In this document: positions 23,948 through 43,012 of the stretch, one piece after another
How the letters are laid out: every line of letters starts with the position of its first letter
How positions within the stretch are numbered: the stretch's first letter is position 1
Source: an uncultured Pelagibacteraceae bacterium
GTDB taxonomy: Bacteria > Pseudomonadota > Alphaproteobacteria > Pelagibacterales > Pelagibacteraceae
Direction of reading: 5' to 3'
DNA length: 64,000 bases
Assembly (NCBI GenBank): GCA_902572225.1
Contig: CACGFJ010000003.1
Span: 1 to 64,000 of the forward strand
Notes under the pieces: model-generated
What the model was told of the DNA's origin: nothing
What the model saw: only the letters and a program-made list of their open reading frames with translations
Database searches by the model: none
Made by a program: the position numbers and the translations under genes

Positions 23948-25021
23948 TTAGACCGAGCTAAGATTATCTAAAATTTTTTTTGAACACTGTTCTGTATTAC
24001 TAGAGCCTTGAAGATCTTTTGTTCGACTGTCTTTATCTTTAAGAGTTAATTCAATTGATTTTACTATTCTATCAGAAGCTTCTTTTTCGCCTAAATAATC
24101 TAACATCATTGCAGCTGACCAAATTTGTCCTACTGGATTAGCTATCCCTTGTCCCGCAATATCTGGTGCGGATCCATGCACAGGTTCAAATAATGATGGG
24201 TATTTATTTGTTGGATTAATATTTCCAGATGGTGCAATTCCAATAGTTCCAGTACAAGCTGGCCCTAGATCTGATAAAATATCTCCAAAAAGGTTTGATG
24301 CGACTATCACATCAAAACGTTCAGGACTTAAAACAAATCTAGCAGCTAATATATCAATGTGATACTGATCAGTTTCCACATCAGAATAGTTCTTTTTATT
24401 CTCATTAAATCTTTCATCCCAATAAGGCATTGTAATAGATATTCCATTTGATTTTGTAGCACTTGTTAGTTTTTTTCTTTTTCTTTTTTTAGCTAATTCA
24501 AATGCAAATTGTTGAACTCTATCTATTCCGTATTTTGACATTATTGTTTCTTGAATAACCACTTCTCTATCACTTCCCTGAAACATTCTTCCACCGACTG
24601 ATGAGTATTCTCCTTCAGTATTTTCTCTAACAATTATCATGTCAATATCACCTGGCTTTTTATTAGCTAACGGAGCATTTACACCTTCAAAAAGTTTTAC
24701 AGGTCTTAAGTTAATAAATTGATCAAACTCTCTTCTAAATTTTAATAATGAACCCCAAAGAGTTATGTGATCTGGATATTTATCTGGCATACCAACCGCA
24801 CCAAAGAAAATTGCATCGTGTTTAGTTAATTTATCTTTCCAGTCATCTGGCATCATTTTTCCATGCTTTTCATAATAATCACATGATGCAAAATCATAAT
24901 CTTCTATCTTTAATTTGAATTGATGTTGTTGAGAAATCTCTTTTAATATTTTTTGCGCTTCAGGTACAACTTCTTTTCCAATGCCGTCACCAGCAATAGA
25001 AGCTATAGAATACTCTTTCAT
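23948..25021 (-). CDS. Tartrate/D-malate dehydrogenase family (isopropylmalate dehydrogenase-like)
   Basis: IAGDGIGKEVVPEAQKIL; RENTEGEYSSVGG; NLFGDILSDLGPACTGTIGIAPSGNINP; EPVHGSAPDIAGQGIANP. Confidence 0.88.
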   Translation of the reverse strand: MKEYSIASIAGDGIGKEVVPEAQKILKEISQQHQFKLKIEDYDFASCDYYEKHGKMMPDDWKDKLTKHDAIFFGAVGMPDKYPDHITLWGSLLKFRREFDQFINLRPVKLFEGVNAPLANKKPGDIDMIIVRENTEGEYSSVGGRMFQGSDREVVIQETIMSKYGIDRVQQFAFELAKKRKRKKLTSATKSNGISITMPYWDERFNENKKNYSDVETDQYHIDILAARFVLSPERFDVIVASNLFGDILSDLGPACTGTIGIAPSGNINPTNKYPSLFEPVHGSAPDIAGQGIANPVGQIWSAAMMLDYLGEKEASDRIVKSIELTLKDKDSRTKDLQGSSNTEQCSKKILDNLSSV

Positions 25022-26177: not shown

Positions 26178-27053
26178 ATGTTTGAAGGATTTAAGAGTAA
26201 ATACGTACAGGTAAAAAAAGGGAAAGTCTTTTGTAAAGTTAAAGGAAAAGGTCTACCTTTATTATTACTTCATGGTTACCCTCAAACACATTTAATGTGG
26301 CACAAAACAGCTCCAGAGTTATCGAAAAGCTTTACAGTTGTTGTTGCAGACCTAAGAGGTTATGGAAATAGTTTAGCTCCACAATCTGATAGTAAACATT
26401 TTAATTATTCAAAACGAGAAATGGCGAGTGACATGAAACAAATGATGGTAAAATTGGGATACCCCAAATTTTTTGTTGCAGGCCATGATAGAGGTGCAAG
26501 AGTTGCTCATAGACTAGCAAGAGACCACAGAAAAAATGTGCTTGCTCTCAGCGTTTTAGATATTTGTCCAACATTAGATATGTATGAACTAACCACTAGA
26601 GATTTTGCAAAAGCATACTTCCATTGGTTTTTCTTAATCCAACCAAAGTGGTTACCTGAAAGAATGATAATGAGCGACCCAAGAAAATGGATGAAGAATT
26701 GCTTAGATAAATGGTCTGGGAATCATAAATTTGGTAGGGTTGAAGAGAGTTATCTAAAGTGCTTTAAGCAACCAAAGAGAATTCATGGATCATGCGAGGA
26801 TTATAGAGCATCTGCTACTATTGATCTTGATCATGACAGATACGATCGAAAGAAAAAATTAAATATTCCAGTTCAAGTATTATGGGGAAAAAATGGTGTT
26901 ATAGGTAAACAATTTAAACCAATAAAAATTTGGCAAAAATATTCAAATAAAAAAGTTATTGGAGTTGCTGTTAAATCTGGACATTTTATACCAGAGCAAA
27001 ATCCTAAAGAAACTATTAAACAATTAAAAAGTTTCTTTTTAAAAAATGCTTAA
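26178..27053 (+). CDS. Alpha/beta hydrolase, haloacetate (fluoroacetate) dehalogenase family
   Basis: LLLLHGYPQTHLMWHK; AGHDRGARVAHRLARDH; YFHWFFLIQP; CEDYRASATIDLDHD; C-terminal SGHFIPEQNP. Confidence 0.85.
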   Translation: MFEGFKSKYVQVKKGKVFCKVKGKGLPLLLLHGYPQTHLMWHKTAPELSKSFTVVVADLRGYGNSLAPQSDSKHFNYSKREMASDMKQMMVKLGYPKFFVAGHDRGARVAHRLARDHRKNVLALSVLDICPTLDMYELTTRDFAKAYFHWFFLIQPKWLPERMIMSDPRKWMKNCLDKWSGNHKFGRVEESYLKCFKQPKRIHGSCEDYRASATIDLDHDRYDRKKKLNIPVQVLWGKNGVIGKQFKPIKIWQKYSNKKVIGVAVKSGHFIPEQNPKETIKQLKSFFLKNA

Positions 27054-27834
27054 AATTATTCCTAATAAAAAAAATATAGGTGCAGAATTAGTCTGTGATT
27101 TAAATAAAATTAATAATTCTTCGTTAAAAAAAATAAAATCTGCTCTTTCAAAATATGGGATGATTTATTTTAGAAACCAAAAATTAAATTCTGATCATTA
27201 TATTAAATTTGCAAAAAAATTTGGAAAACTTGCAAACTATCCAAGACTTAAAGGATTGAATAAAAAATATCCTCAAATAACTGTTGTTCAAAGAAAATCT
27301 ACTGATAAAGGCCCTAGTTTTGGTGAGCAATTTCATACAGACTCAATTTATACTAAAAAGCCACCAAGATTTACTATGTTACTATCTAAATTAGTCCCAA
27401 AAAAAGGTCAGGCAAATACAGATTTCTGTTCTCAATATTTAGCTTATGAAAAATTACCAGCTAACTTTAAAAGAAAGTTTAAAAATGAAAAATGTATTTT
27501 TTCATCAGAAGGACCTATTTCTGTAACTAGATTGGAAAGAGAGAAAGAAAAGGGGAAAAAAGCTAAAGAACTTATTTCAAAGCATAAATTAATAAGAAAA
27601 ATAAATAGTAAATATACTTTATATTGTAGTCCAGGACACTTTATACGTTTTAATAACAGCAAAATTGATAAAAAATTAAAAACTTATTTATTTAAACACC
27701 AATTAAAAAAAAGTTTTCAATATTCTTTAGAGTGGGAAAAGAACCAATTAGCCATTTGGGACAATAGATCTATGCTTCATCAAGCTACAGCTTTTAAAGG
27801 TAATAGAATTATGCATAGAATTACTGTTCAATAA
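27046..27834 (+). CDS. TauD/TfdA-family 2-oxoglutarate/Fe(II) dioxygenase
   Basis: FGEQFHTDSIYTKKPPRFTMLLS (HxD) and AIWDNRSMLHQATAF...RIMHRITV. Confidence 0.88.
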   Translation: MLKIIPNKKNIGAELVCDLNKINNSSLKKIKSALSKYGMIYFRNQKLNSDHYIKFAKKFGKLANYPRLKGLNKKYPQITVVQRKSTDKGPSFGEQFHTDSIYTKKPPRFTMLLSKLVPKKGQANTDFCSQYLAYEKLPANFKRKFKNEKCIFSSEGPISVTRLEREKEKGKKAKELISKHKLIRKINSKYTLYCSPGHFIRFNNSKIDKKLKTYLFKHQLKKSFQYSLEWEKNQLAIWDNRSMLHQATAFKGNRIMHRITVQ

Positions 27835-28757
27835 TGTTTCAGGTATTTCTAGGCTTAACTCCATTTATAGGTATTACTCTTATTGGTTATCTTTTAGGAT
27901 ATATCAAAATATTTGATTTACAAAAGGCTAGAATATTTAATTTATTTTCATTTTATATCGCGGTACCAGCCTTAATCATAAAACTAGTTGCACAAAGTGA
28001 TGTTGGGGAAATAGATGTGTCTCAAATTTCATCATATTTTTTAATGCAATTAACAAGTGGAATGTTTGCTTTCTTATTAACCAAAAATACTTTCAAAAGA
28101 TCAATGCAAGAATCTATTATTTGGGCCCTAACAGTTGCTTTATCAAATCACGTAATATTAGTTTTACCTATTGCTGAAATATTCTTTGATGGAAGCACAA
28201 TAACTCAAATATCAGGTATTATTTTAATGGATAGTGTTGTTTTATTATCCATAGTTAGTTTTTTTTTAGAACTTACTGTAAAAAAAAGAATTAAATTATT
28301 TCAGTTTTTAAGAAATTTAATATTAAATCCCATGATATTAGCAATATTAATTGGATTGATTATAAGAATTTCAAAGATCAATATAGACGAAACTCCATTT
28401 GAGTATATTCTACAAAGACTGGCAGCATGTGTGATGCCAGTTGGTTTATTTGCAATTGGTATCATTTTATCTTTCTACTCAAAAAAAGTTTTCAATAAAT
28501 TAACAATCACTATTTCAATATTAAAACTTATTATATCACCATTGATTTTGCTAATATTAGGCTACACATTCTTTAGCTTGTCAAATCCAATTAATTTTGC
28601 TGGAGCTTTGTTGGTTAGTGTTGGCCCGTGTGGAGCCACCTCAATTGTTATGTGTTCTGCATATAATGTAAGCCCAGAAAATATTATTAAGGCAATATTT
28701 ATTTCAACATTTGCGTCAATATTTACTTTTTTATTTACAATAAATTTATTAAATTAA
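27834..28757 (+). CDS. AEC (auxin efflux carrier) family transporter
   Basis: Multi-TM protein; LGYIKIFDLQKARIFNLFSFYIAVPALIIKLVAQS and C-terminal GPCGATSIVMCSAYNVSPE. Confidence 0.85.
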   Translation: MFQVFLGLTPFIGITLIGYLLGYIKIFDLQKARIFNLFSFYIAVPALIIKLVAQSDVGEIDVSQISSYFLMQLTSGMFAFLLTKNTFKRSMQESIIWALTVALSNHVILVLPIAEIFFDGSTITQISGIILMDSVVLLSIVSFFLELTVKKRIKLFQFLRNLILNPMILAILIGLIIRISKINIDETPFEYILQRLAACVMPVGLFAIGIILSFYSKKVFNKLTITISILKLIISPLILLILGYTFFSLSNPINFAGALLVSVGPCGATSIVMCSAYNVSPENIIKAIFISTFASIFTFLFTINLLN

Positions 28758-29377: not shown

Positions 29378-29454
29378 GGCGGGGTAGCTCAGTTGGTTAG
29401 AGCGCGGGACTCATAAGCCCGAGGTCAGTGGTTCGATCCCACTTCCCGCTACCA
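29378..29454 (+). tRNA. tRNA-Met (CAU), elongator-type
   Basis: GGCGGGGTAGCTCAGTTGGTTAGAGCGCGGGACTCATAAGCCCGAGGTCAGTGGTTCGATCCCACTTCCCGCTACCA; cloverleaf, encoded CCA, anticodon loop CTCATAA. Confidence 0.92.
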
Positions 29455-29498: not shown

Positions 29499-30347
29499 AT
29501 GAAACTGTTAGTTAAAGTATTGATATTTAACATAATTTTTGTTTCTGTTTCTTTTGCTAAAGTAGACAGAGTAGTAGATAAATTTTATTCTTCTCTTGAG
29601 GATTTTTTAGAGGAAAATTTTGAGAATACAGATTTCTCAATAAAAAAAATTGATAAAATTAAACCAGAAATTGGAATACAAACTTTTAAGATATTTTCAG
29701 AGGAAAATTCAGATTTATCTTTCTTTCAGGGATCTTTATTTTTACATGATAGCGATAGAGAGACATTTAATTTAGGTTTAGGAAAAAGATATTTATCAAA
29801 TGATGAGAGCGTTCTATTTGGAATAAATGCATTTTATGACCATGAATTTGATTACGAACACCAAAGATTTAGTATAGGTACTGAAATAAAATCATCAATT
29901 TTGGATTTAAACTACAATCACTACATCGCGCAAAGTTCTAACAAAAAAGGAAAGAACAGTAAAAATGAAGAAGCTATTGACGGTTACGATCTAGAATTAG
30001 GAGCGCACCTACCCTATATTCCTTCAATGAAAGCATATGTTAAGGCTTTTGACTTTGATGTTTCTGGTGGAAATGATTTTCAAGGTTTAGAATTTTCTAC
30101 ACAAATAAAAGTTCCAAATTCAGGGTTATCATTGGAGATTGGTCACACAGATTACGATAATCACAACGATCAAAGTTTTATCAATCTTAAATACAGTAGC
30201 AATATAAAAAATTCAGGCTATTCATTCTTTAGTAGAAATGCATTCGAAAAAATTTCTATGAAAGATAGAATGTTCGAAAAAGTTAGAAGAGATAATGTTA
30301 TTAAGAAAAAAGGAGCAGGTTTTACTGTTAAAGCAGGAGGATTTTAA
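29499..30347 (+). CDS. Intimin/invasin-like inverse-autotransporter beta-barrel, without a fused passenger
   Basis: Signal peptide; FFQGSLFLHDSDRETFNLGLGKRYLSNDESVLFGINAFYDHEFDYEHQRFSIGTEIKSS...AIDGYDLELGAHLPYIPSMKAYVKAFDFD matches the IAT-beta pattern; ends in Phe. Confidence 0.75.
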   Translation: MKLLVKVLIFNIIFVSVSFAKVDRVVDKFYSSLEDFLEENFENTDFSIKKIDKIKPEIGIQTFKIFSEENSDLSFFQGSLFLHDSDRETFNLGLGKRYLSNDESVLFGINAFYDHEFDYEHQRFSIGTEIKSSILDLNYNHYIAQSSNKKGKNSKNEEAIDGYDLELGAHLPYIPSMKAYVKAFDFDVSGGNDFQGLEFSTQIKVPNSGLSLEIGHTDYDNHNDQSFINLKYSSNIKNSGYSFFSRNAFEKISMKDRMFEKVRRDNVIKKKGAGFTVKAGGF

Positions 30348-39330: not shown

Positions 39331-40112
39331 AAATAGCTTGTATACAATTATCTAGTGGAGAAAATTATCAAAGTAATTTTAAAGATATTATTAAATACAT
39401 AAATCAAGCTATAAAAAATAAATCTGATTTAATTATTACACCTGAGACCTCTTCTTTGATGTCTAGTAGTAGAGAAACACTTTTTAAATATTCATATGAA
39501 ATGAATAAAGATCCAATTTTGAAGAAAATTAGGGAAGTTTCAAAAAAATATAAGAAATGGATTTTACTCGGATCAATTTGTGTTAAGGTTAAAAACAAAC
39601 TCAGAAATAGATCTATACTGGTTGGACCAAATGGAAAAATTGTCAAATATTATGACAAAATTAATATGTTTGATGTTAAAATTCCAAATAAAGAACAACA
39701 TAAAGAAAGTAAAACTTTTAAAGCAGGAAATAAATTGGTCACTGCCAACTTACCTTGGGGCAAAATAGGTTTTACAATCTGTTTTGATCTAAGATTTCCT
39801 GAACTTTATAGGAATTTATCAAAAAAAAATTTAAGTTTTATAGCCGTTCCATCAGCTTTTACAAAGTTTACGGGACAAAAACATTGGTTACCACTTTTAA
39901 GAGCAAGAGCGATTGAAAATTTTTGTTATATTTTTGCACCAGCTCAAACTGGTAAAAACACACCTAAAAGAGAAACGTTTGGTCATACAACGATTATTTC
40001 TCCAGACGGAAAAATATTAGCATTAAAAAAATTAGGGAAGGGCGTAATTTATTCAAAAATTAATCCTAAACTTTCTATGGATTTAAGAAAAATTATTCCT
40101 AGTTTAGTTTAA
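39327..40112 (+). CDS. Carbon-nitrogen hydrolase (nitrilase superfamily, Nit2-like)
   Basis: IITPETSSLM, GKIVKYYDKINMFDVKIP, GKIGFTICFDLRFPELYRNLS (Glu-Lys-Cys triad). Confidence 0.88.
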   Translation: MKIACIQLSSGENYQSNFKDIIKYINQAIKNKSDLIITPETSSLMSSSRETLFKYSYEMNKDPILKKIREVSKKYKKWILLGSICVKVKNKLRNRSILVGPNGKIVKYYDKINMFDVKIPNKEQHKESKTFKAGNKLVTANLPWGKIGFTICFDLRFPELYRNLSKKNLSFIAVPSAFTKFTGQKHWLPLLRARAIENFCYIFAPAQTGKNTPKRETFGHTTIISPDGKILALKKLGKGVIYSKINPKLSMDLRKIIPSLV

Positions 40113-43012
40113 TTAACTGTTTCAAAAATTTTAAATAATAATTCTGAGACATGCTTACCTTTTTTCTCAGATAAATCAGATATTTGATGTCTGCAGCTTG
40201 TACCATTTGCAACTATAAAATCTTTTTCATCACTATTATTGATCGCAGGTATTAAAGAAAGATTAGCCATTTTTTTGGAGACTTCATAAGTCTTACTGTC
40301 ATACCCAAATGAACCAGCCATTCCACAACAACTAGACTCTATCATTTTATTATTAATATTTAATTCTGATAAAAGATCAATTAGACCCTTCATTCTATCT
40401 TGTGATTTTTGATGACAGTGCCCGTGGATTAATACATTTTGATCGAACTTATTAGTTTTAATATTATTGTTATTTTTTATTTGTTCTAGAATAAATTCCT
40501 CAAGTAGATAAAATTTATTTTTGATTTGTTCTCTATTATTCACATTTTTTAAAGTCTGATATTCATCGTTAAATGTTAACAAACAAGATGGTTCAATACC
40601 TACAACTGGTAGATCAATATAATTATTTTGGATAACGTAATTATTAAATCTGTTTAGCTCTTCAGAGGCTTTGTCTAATTGACCGTAAGATATATAAGTT
40701 CTTCCACAACAAAGTGGTCTCTTTAATTTGTCTTTACCAAAACTTGGTATAATCGCCTGATAACCAAATTTATTTAATACTTTAATGGCATAAACTAAAT
40801 TTTCATTTTCAAAATTAATATTAAATGTATCTGCAAACAAAATTACTTTATTTTCCGATACTGTCTGACTATCGTAAATCTCTCTTAATGCGTTCTGGTT
40901 TTGAACTTCAGGCATAGACCTTGCTGTTGCAAATCCAAACTTTTCAACAATTGTAGAGATTAGAGGTAGGTTTTTGACCTTATTGAAAAGAGGAGCAACA
41001 ATCTTTAATAACCAAATAAGTCTTGGCATACCTGAGATAACTCTATCTTTAATACGCATGCTAAATTTTTTATAGTAATGAGAAAGAAACTCAGATTTCA
41101 TCTTAGCCATATCAACCGACATAGGACATTCTCTTTGACAAGCTTTACAGCTGACACATAACTCCATAGTTTCATACATGTCTTTTGATGCAAATGAACC
41201 TTCTGGAAGTTGATTAGATAAAGCTAATCTTAAAGTATTTGCTCTACCTCGAACTAAATCTTTTTCTTCTTTAGTTACTCTGTATGATGGACACATCACA
41301 CCAGAGTCTAGTTTTCTACAAGCACCATTGTTATTACACATCTCAATAGCATCAGAGAATTGGCCCCAGTTTGACCAATCATAATGTGTATTTATGTTTT
41401 CAGTTTGATAACCTGATTTATATCTCATTAAAGATCTATCATTTGATTTAAACGGTCGAACAATTTTACCTGGATTTAGAAGGTTTTTACTATCGAATGT
41501 ATCTTTTATTTCTTCAAAAGCGTTTGTGATTTTTTTACCAAACATCATTTCATGGAATTCTGATCTAACAATTCCATCACCATGTTCTCCTGAGTGAGAA
41601 CCTTTATAATCCTTAACCATTTCAAAAGCTTCTTCAGATATAGATCTCATGTTTTGTATATCTTTGTCTGATTTCATATTTAAAACTGGTCTTACGTGTA
41701 GAGTTCCAACGGATGCATGTGCATAAAACATTCCACTTGTTCCATATTTTTTAAATATTTCTTTTAATCTTGCTGTATAGTCAGCTAAATGTTCTAGAGA
41801 AACTGCACAATCTTCAATAAATGCAACTGGTTTTTTATCACCTTTCATTGACATTAAAATATTTAATCCAGCTTTTCTTATTTCGAAAACTTCTTTCTGC
41901 TCTGAAAGATCTGAATAATATGAAAACTCGTTTTTTTTGTTTTGGTTTAAAACTAAATATTCTAGATCCTTTATTTTCTTTTCATAAACACTTTTCTCTG
42001 TATCAATAAATTCTACCATCAAAACAGCTTCAGGATTTCCTTTGATGTATTTTTTTATACCCCCAGCATACATTGGTATTTCTTTTGCTAAATTTAATAA
42101 ATTCTGGTCCATCAATTCAACACAAGTTGGTTTTAATTTTACTATCTCTTTTGATAATTCCATTGCTTGATGGAAATTATCAAAGTAGCAAACACCTAAA
42201 ATTTTATTATTTGGTATTTCTGATAATTTTAATTTTATTTTATTAAATAAAGATAATGTTCCTTCAGAGCCAACAAGAAGATTTGATGAATTAAATCCTT
42301 TTGGATCAATTAGATCGATATTATATCCTCCAACTCTTCTTTGCGTTGTTGGCCAATTAGCATCAATTTCGCCTCCAACTTGTTGTCTTACATCGATAAA
42401 TTTATCTATGATTTTATAAAGTCTATCTTGGTTATTCTTAGTAGCTAAATAATTCTTATTTATCTGGTCAAAATTAAATATAGAACCATCATCTAATATT
42501 GCTTCAATAGCTAATACGTTATGAACCATGTTGCCATAATATAAAGATCTTGATCCACAGGAATTATTAGCTGACATTCCTCCAATAGTTGCTCTACTAC
42601 TTGTTGAAACATCCACTGGAAACCAAAGACCATGAGGCTTCAAATATGCATTTAGATGATCTAATACGACACCTGGTTGAACCCATACATATTTTTCTTC
42701 AACATTAAGTTCTAAAATTTTATTCTGATGTTTAGAGTAATCTAGTACAACACTTTCCCCAACGGTTTGACCACATTGAGAACTTCCACCACCTCTAGCT
42801 AATAGAGGCACTGAATTCTTTTGTGAATACTCCATTAAACTTAAAACATCATTAGTATCTTTTGGAAGAACTACACCAAGGGGTTTAATTTGATATACAG
42901 AAGCATCGGTACTGTATCTTCCACGTGAGAATTCATCGAATAAAGTTTTTCCATCAACTTTGTTACTAATTTCTTTACCAATTTTTTGTATCTGATCTGA
43001 ATTAAACCGCAT
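40109..43012 (-). CDS. FAD-linked oxidase / Fe-S oxidoreductase fusion (GlcD-GlcF / YdiJ-like)
   Basis: FAD_binding_4 region (LLARGGGSSQCGQTVGESVVLDYS; SANNSCGSRSLYYGN); CVSCKACQRECP ferredoxin motif; CCGxxY/CCGMAGSFGY C-terminal CCG motifs. Confidence 0.9.
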   Translation of the reverse strand: MRFNSDQIQKIGKEISNKVDGKTLFDEFSRGRYSTDASVYQIKPLGVVLPKDTNDVLSLMEYSQKNSVPLLARGGGSSQCGQTVGESVVLDYSKHQNKILELNVEEKYVWVQPGVVLDHLNAYLKPHGLWFPVDVSTSSRATIGGMSANNSCGSRSLYYGNMVHNVLAIEAILDDGSIFNFDQINKNYLATKNNQDRLYKIIDKFIDVRQQVGGEIDANWPTTQRRVGGYNIDLIDPKGFNSSNLLVGSEGTLSLFNKIKLKLSEIPNNKILGVCYFDNFHQAMELSKEIVKLKPTCVELMDQNLLNLAKEIPMYAGGIKKYIKGNPEAVLMVEFIDTEKSVYEKKIKDLEYLVLNQNKKNEFSYYSDLSEQKEVFEIRKAGLNILMSMKGDKKPVAFIEDCAVSLEHLADYTARLKEIFKKYGTSGMFYAHASVGTLHVRPVLNMKSDKDIQNMRSISEEAFEMVKDYKGSHSGEHGDGIVRSEFHEMMFGKKITNAFEEIKDTFDSKNLLNPGKIVRPFKSNDRSLMRYKSGYQTENINTHYDWSNWGQFSDAIEMCNNNGACRKLDSGVMCPSYRVTKEEKDLVRGRANTLRLALSNQLPEGSFASKDMYETMELCVSCKACQRECPMSVDMAKMKSEFLSHYYKKFSMRIKDRVISGMPRLIWLLKIVAPLFNKVKNLPLISTIVEKFGFATARSMPEVQNQNALREIYDSQTVSENKVILFADTFNINFENENLVYAIKVLNKFGYQAIIPSFGKDKLKRPLCCGRTYISYGQLDKASEELNRFNNYVIQNNYIDLPVVGIEPSCLLTFNDEYQTLKNVNNREQIKNKFYLLEEFILEQIKNNNNIKTNKFDQNVLIHGHCHQKSQDRMKGLIDLLSELNINNKMIESSCCGMAGSFGYDSKTYEVSKKMANLSLIPAINNSDEKDFIVANGTSCRHQISDLSEKKGKHVSELLFKIFETVN

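Follow-up and report, generated by a model that had tools for sequence, protein, structure and literature searches.

Three open reading frames on the forward strand of the window (the whole 64,000-nucleotide stretch of DNA analysed here) are assigned to a hydrolase of the fluoroacetate dehalogenase (FAcD) family, a TauD-like oxygenase and an AEC-family carrier (Table 1). The sequence-only reading had delimited these frames correctly, including the overlap of the second and third genes with the gene before each: the hydrolase and oxygenase frames share 8 bp, and the oxygenase and carrier frames share 1 bp (TAATG). The origin lies in SAR11, as each of the best 80 contig matches to the hydrolase bears a Pelagibacteraceae title. 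Purifying selection acts on all three genes. The median dN/dS of the hydrolase inside the window clade is 0.06 (40 comparisons), and values across the three genes range from 0.04 to 0.22, although wider comparisons approach synonymous saturation and their ratios are rough. A scan for promoters and terminators gave nothing exceeding shuffles, and no fluoride riboswitch was found in the window. The window also holds a tRNA (29378-29451) and, next to it, a gene for a 282-aa protein (29499-30347) with a signal-like start and a beta-barrel-like domain that appears inverse-autotransporter-like by eye only.

Table 1. Features of the three-gene locus, the hydrolase motifs and one neighbouring gene
Feature	Positions	Strand	Length or residues	Basis or setting
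FAcD-family alpha/beta hydrolase (haloacetate/fluoroacetate dehalogenase type)	26178..27053	+	291 aa	homology, tree, model
TauD/TfdA-family Fe(II)/2-oxoglutarate oxygenase	27046..27834	+	262 aa	PF02668
AEC-family (Mem_trans) carrier, putative organic-acid permease	27834..28757	+	307 aa	PF03547
HDRGAR: nucleophile D104, carboxylate-clamp R105 and R108	26484..26501	+	residues 103-108	
FHWFF: halide pocket H149, W150	26619..26633	+	residues 148-152	
CEDYRA: halide pocket Y209	26793..26810	+	residues 206-211	
SGHF: catalytic H269	26976..26987	+	residues 267-270	
TTC, tartrate/D-malate-type beta-decarboxylating dehydrogenase	23948..25021	-		neighbour across GuaC

Family identity and active site of the hydrolase

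The first gene almost certainly encodes a FAcD-family hydrolase with an intact pocket, as had been claimed from its motifs. Its top PDB match is Alr0039 (NOS0089; 3qyj) of Nostoc sp. PCC 7120 (phmmer E = 2e-97, 329 bits), with the FAcDs from Delftia D4B, Dechloromonas (DAR3835) and Rhodopseudomonas (RPA1163) ranking next. Identity to these four solved enzymes is 50.7%, 48.0%, 44.8% and 44.1%, respectively, and to pUO1 DehH1 42.1%. Alr0039 resembles the hydrolase over its whole length and matches it at every catalytic, clamp and pocket residue (TM 0.95), although its host lies outside SAR11. A structural model, proposed earlier as a check on the pocket, agrees: the AlphaFold model (pLDDT 88.7) matches 3qyj and RPA1163 (3r3u) in Foldseek at TM 0.94-0.95. 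In the family tree, sequences from Pelagibacter and from g5 group in a single clade (SH-aLRT 99), and five enzymes named FAcD or haloacetate dehalogenase are scattered elsewhere among deep branches, many of them long and weak. As a member of the FAcD family, the hydrolase is ordinary.

Two other assignments were considered and rejected. Against an epoxide hydrolase or esterase, the PDB epoxide hydrolase 1ehy scores 88 bits versus 329 for Alr0039, and the D-R-x-x-R clamp and H-W-Y pocket are complete; 4bat and 4b9a, named "probable epoxide hydrolase", score alongside the FAcD group. A haloalkane dehalogenase identity fails at 62.8 bits against a cut-off of 241.

The four motifs lie where the sequence-only reading placed them, and each aligns to a functional residue of RPA1163, whose triad and H155/W156/Y219 have described roles (PMC11022551). 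Sequence alignment yields a catalytic triad D104-H269-D128 (D110, H280 and D134 in RPA1163), a carboxylate clamp R105 and R108 (R111, R114) and a halide pocket H149, W150 and Y209 (H155, W156, Y219). D128 and W179 (W185 in RPA1163), which that reading did not list, are also present. D104, R105, R108, D128, H149, W150, Y209 and H269 are unvarying across an alignment of 140 homologues, and the pocket residues are all unvarying in the window clade (n = 55) and its sister clade (n = 36). W179 is kept in the window clade, clade B and g5; clade C has a gap at this position, and distant SAR11 homologues have R or Q instead. The surroundings of the RPA1163 pocket differ from those of the hydrolase at three positions, where F40, Y141 and K181 correspond to Y34, M135 and C175.

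The reaction can be transferred from the literature on characterised relatives. D104 would attack the alpha-carbon of a small 2-substituted carboxylate gripped by R105 and R108 in an SN2 step, with the departing halide stabilised by H149, W150 and Y209; water activated by H269-D128 would then hydrolyse the ester to release a 2-hydroxy acid. Defluorination is reported for Alr0039, on fluoroacetate and difluoroacetate, and for DAR3835 (PMC11022551). Dehalogenation of a small 2-haloacid by the hydrolase in vivo is slightly more likely than not.

Some relatives depart from this pattern. The Gly preceding the catalytic His is Asp in clade C loci (L012-L018) and mostly Lys in g5 loci (L019-L024), a possible change to the pocket as judged by alignment. 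Distant SAR11 homologues (~42%; L160-L162, L164) lie among housekeeping genes (Rho, AICAR transformylase) in a conserved arrangement; since most carry R at the W185 position and N at the F40 position, they probably have another specificity.

The oxygenase, the carrier and their linkage to the hydrolase

Domain profiles bear out the earlier naming of the second and third genes. The oxygenase exceeds the Pfam gathering score for PF02668 (136 bits), and its H97-D99-H245 metal triad, R254 and R258 are unvarying over 12 SAR11 orthologues. A profile of the protein scores best against (R)-2-phenoxypropionate dioxygenases (RdpA), which are its nearest relatives of solved structure, and second against taurine dioxygenases, and it falls short of the taurine dioxygenase model NF007104 (110 bits versus a cut-off of 313). 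RdpA and TauD share with the oxygenase a fold family, an HxD...H metal site and C-terminal arginines, over a similarity that is full-length but low. The structure model of the oxygenase (pLDDT 63.5) is too poor for use. The carrier contains a full-length membrane-transport domain (PF03547, 79.7 bits versus a gathering score of 25.7), although it reaches only 57.7 bits against a cut-off of 246 for the AEC family model TIGR00946. Solitary orthologues of the carrier lie beside groEL in three loci (L212:6118-7044; L221:7950-8876; L227:8161-9087).

The trio very probably constitutes a linked module. Synteny, which the sequence-only reading had also named as a check, supports a genuine association, as the genes co-occur and have come together repeatedly at different sites. 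In a larger sample of 201 genomes of the genus, counted as FAcD-positive at an identity of at least 66% (two further genomes with only a distant homologue, at 40-41%, were left out of that count), 53 carry FAcD, 45 carry AEC, 43 carry both and 2 carry AEC without FAcD. Fisher's exact p for this co-occurrence is 1.2e-31, a value that ignores phylogeny, or shared ancestry, and genome incompleteness. Within the genus part of the family sample, the FAcD-positive and AEC-positive sets coincide (18 genomes each), and all are TauD-positive.

Neighbourhoods are more telling than the co-occurrence test on this question. FAcD-TauD-AEC adjoins GuaC in the window clade and in L222 and L225, and recurs at a FolD/metallo-beta-lactamase site in clade C; FAcD-TauD lies next to FabI/FabB in L215 and between PhyH-like and TrpB-like genes in L223, L224 and the short contig L216. 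This makes four distinct chromosomal locations at which FAcD directly precedes the oxygenase gene, so the two form a genuinely linked unit. The 8-bp overlap of FAcD and TauD is seen again in L210, L215, L216 and L222-L226, the flanks at the other insertion sites are housekeeping genes, and in L214 FAcD is directly followed by AEC.

It is very improbable that the genes are merely adjacent and share no function, with the hydrolase acting by itself as a generic haloacid scavenger. The partners are separable: several genomes have FAcD by itself at the FolD site, AEC stands alone next to GroEL, and TauD occurs elsewhere by itself or with TTC. In clade B, TTC-GuaC lies between TauD-AEC on one side and FAcD on the other, and identity to the window is 88% for FAcD but 75% for TauD and 62% for AEC, which can be read as separate histories. 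The same figures suggest parts that were exchanged yet kept together, and re-association at four sites, many of them with the same short overlap, and the strong co-occurrence speak against mere adjacency.

TTC might be an accessory to the cassette. All 19 TTC-positive genomes in the genus part of the family sample are TauD-positive, and TTC is directly followed by TauD, with neither FAcD nor AEC, in two loci (L146:7708-9570; L151:7994-9856). This two-gene run suggests that a partner of the oxygenase acts in 2-hydroxyacid metabolism. It also lends something to the idea that the FAcD fold has been repurposed for a natural, non-halogenated 2-substituted acid (an ester, lactone, sulfonate or other leaving group), acting with the oxygenase and sometimes TTC. 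That idea gains further from the likeness of the oxygenase to RdpA, which acts on 2-aryloxy acids, from the absence of fluoride handling described below, and from the existence of mixed esterase/dehalogenase hydrolases (PMC13230308), though the one reported has a Ser nucleophile. Yet the halide pocket is fully kept and, in the window clade, shows no trace of remodelling, and an Asp nucleophile is characteristic of dehalogenases and of epoxide hydrolases but not of esterases. Repurposing of this kind is doubtful.

Fluoride handling and the likely substrate

The fluoride exporter CrcB is missing from all 53 FAcD-positive Pelagibacter genomes, with controls positive. In the sample of the SAR11 family, CrcB occurs in 25 genomes of four other genera (g5, g7, g9, g12) and in none of the window's genus; FAcD-positive g5 relatives do carry it. 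For CLC, no match above the cut-off appears in 197 genomes of the family. Among the window neighbours scanned, no fluoroacetyl-CoA thioesterase or methyltransferase was found. A fluoride exporter of either type, linked or elsewhere in the genome, and these two companion genes would mark a dedicated fluoroacetate-degradation island.

Characterised fluoroacetate clusters look different. On pUO1 (Delftia), a methyltransferase, a thioesterase and dehH1 are consecutive and are followed by an IS element and crcB; CrcB, thioesterase and methyltransferase likewise surround the FAcD of Caballeronia S22 (PMC11812338). Both clusters use the same enzyme family, but the SAR11 hydrolase lacks such neighbours and is accompanied instead by a TauD-like oxygenase and an AEC carrier. 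An exporter is present in more than 85% of surveyed bacteria, and in one system strains without a functional fluoride exporter did not defluorinate (PMC11139923).

The fate of a glycolate product bears on the same question. No genome of the window clade has a full-scoring GlcD (best 340 bits versus a cut-off of 568), so glycolate would have no obvious route there, and glycolate salvage is weakened as the purpose of the locus. The GlcD model reaches ~527 bits in three clade C genomes, and some SAR11, such as HTCC7211, are reported to lack glcDEF (PMC6775983). Elsewhere in the window, a 967-aa protein (40109-43012) matches a GlcD-like FAD domain in two stretches and may be a fusion of a D-2-hydroxyacid dehydrogenase with another domain.

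A dedicated pathway for fluoroacetate detoxification or utilisation, yielding fluoride and glycolate as in Delftia or Caballeronia, is thus unlikely, even though the known fluoride-pocket residues are all kept and the nearest homologues defluorinate fluoroacetate. Because CrcB, CLC and the flanking resistance genes are absent, fluoroacetate is an unlikely natural substrate, and fluoride release is unlikely to be the daily job of the hydrolase. Any fluoride that is released may be too little to require export. The retention of W150 nevertheless counts against a non-fluorinated substrate, since the matching Trp is reported to be needed for C-F cleavage and dispensable for dechlorination (PMC11022551). 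FAcDs are also described as favouring fluorine above other halogens (PMC11139923).

The locus is probably best explained as a competent FAcD-family dehalogenase in a SAR11 cassette that takes up and opens short 2-substituted acids. The cassette, transferable and combining the hydrolase with a TauD/RdpA-type 2-oxoglutarate oxygenase and an AEC organic-acid carrier, would import and open such acids, probably marine chloro-, bromo- or iodo-acids, and would not serve as a dedicated fluoroacetate route. Judged from the residues, hydrolysis of a short 2-chloro-, 2-bromo-, 2-iodo- or other 2-substituted acid is the best reading of the enzyme, and the "halogenated or otherwise 2-substituted organic acid" proposed earlier stays the best, if putative, substrate class. 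We infer acid transport by the AEC protein, its direction and the place of the oxygenase in the route. The availability of haloacetates in open seawater is not established from the literature found. Only tentatively can the cassette (FAcD, RdpA-like oxygenase and AEC permease) be put forward as a previously undescribed transferable SAR11 system for natural organohalogens or 2-substituted acids that operates without known fluoride export.

Distribution among SAR11 and other bacteria

SAR11 bacteria rank among the most abundant groups in the ocean. The FAcD homologue is present in 53 of the 201 Pelagibacter genomes sampled (26%) and in 86 of 337 genomes in the class sample (25%). The sequence-only reading, which stands as to FAcD identity, pocket and module, does not hold where it called the locus unusual for open-ocean bacteria. 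As about a quarter of the sampled genus genomes carry a FAcD-type dehalogenase, short halogenated or 2-substituted acids could commonly be turned over in surface waters.

The literature searched contains no paper that ties SAR11 to fluoroacetate dehalogenase. The enzyme family itself is known; the novelty lies in the SAR11 cassette and in its occurrence where fluoride export is lacking. It amounts to a natural experiment on whether cells that lack a fluoride exporter can retain an enzyme whose pocket is fully equipped to cleave C-F bonds. Hadal Chloroflexi are reported to carry haloacetate dehalogenase genes (PMC9088039), and FAcD homologues occur in 312 plasmid records.
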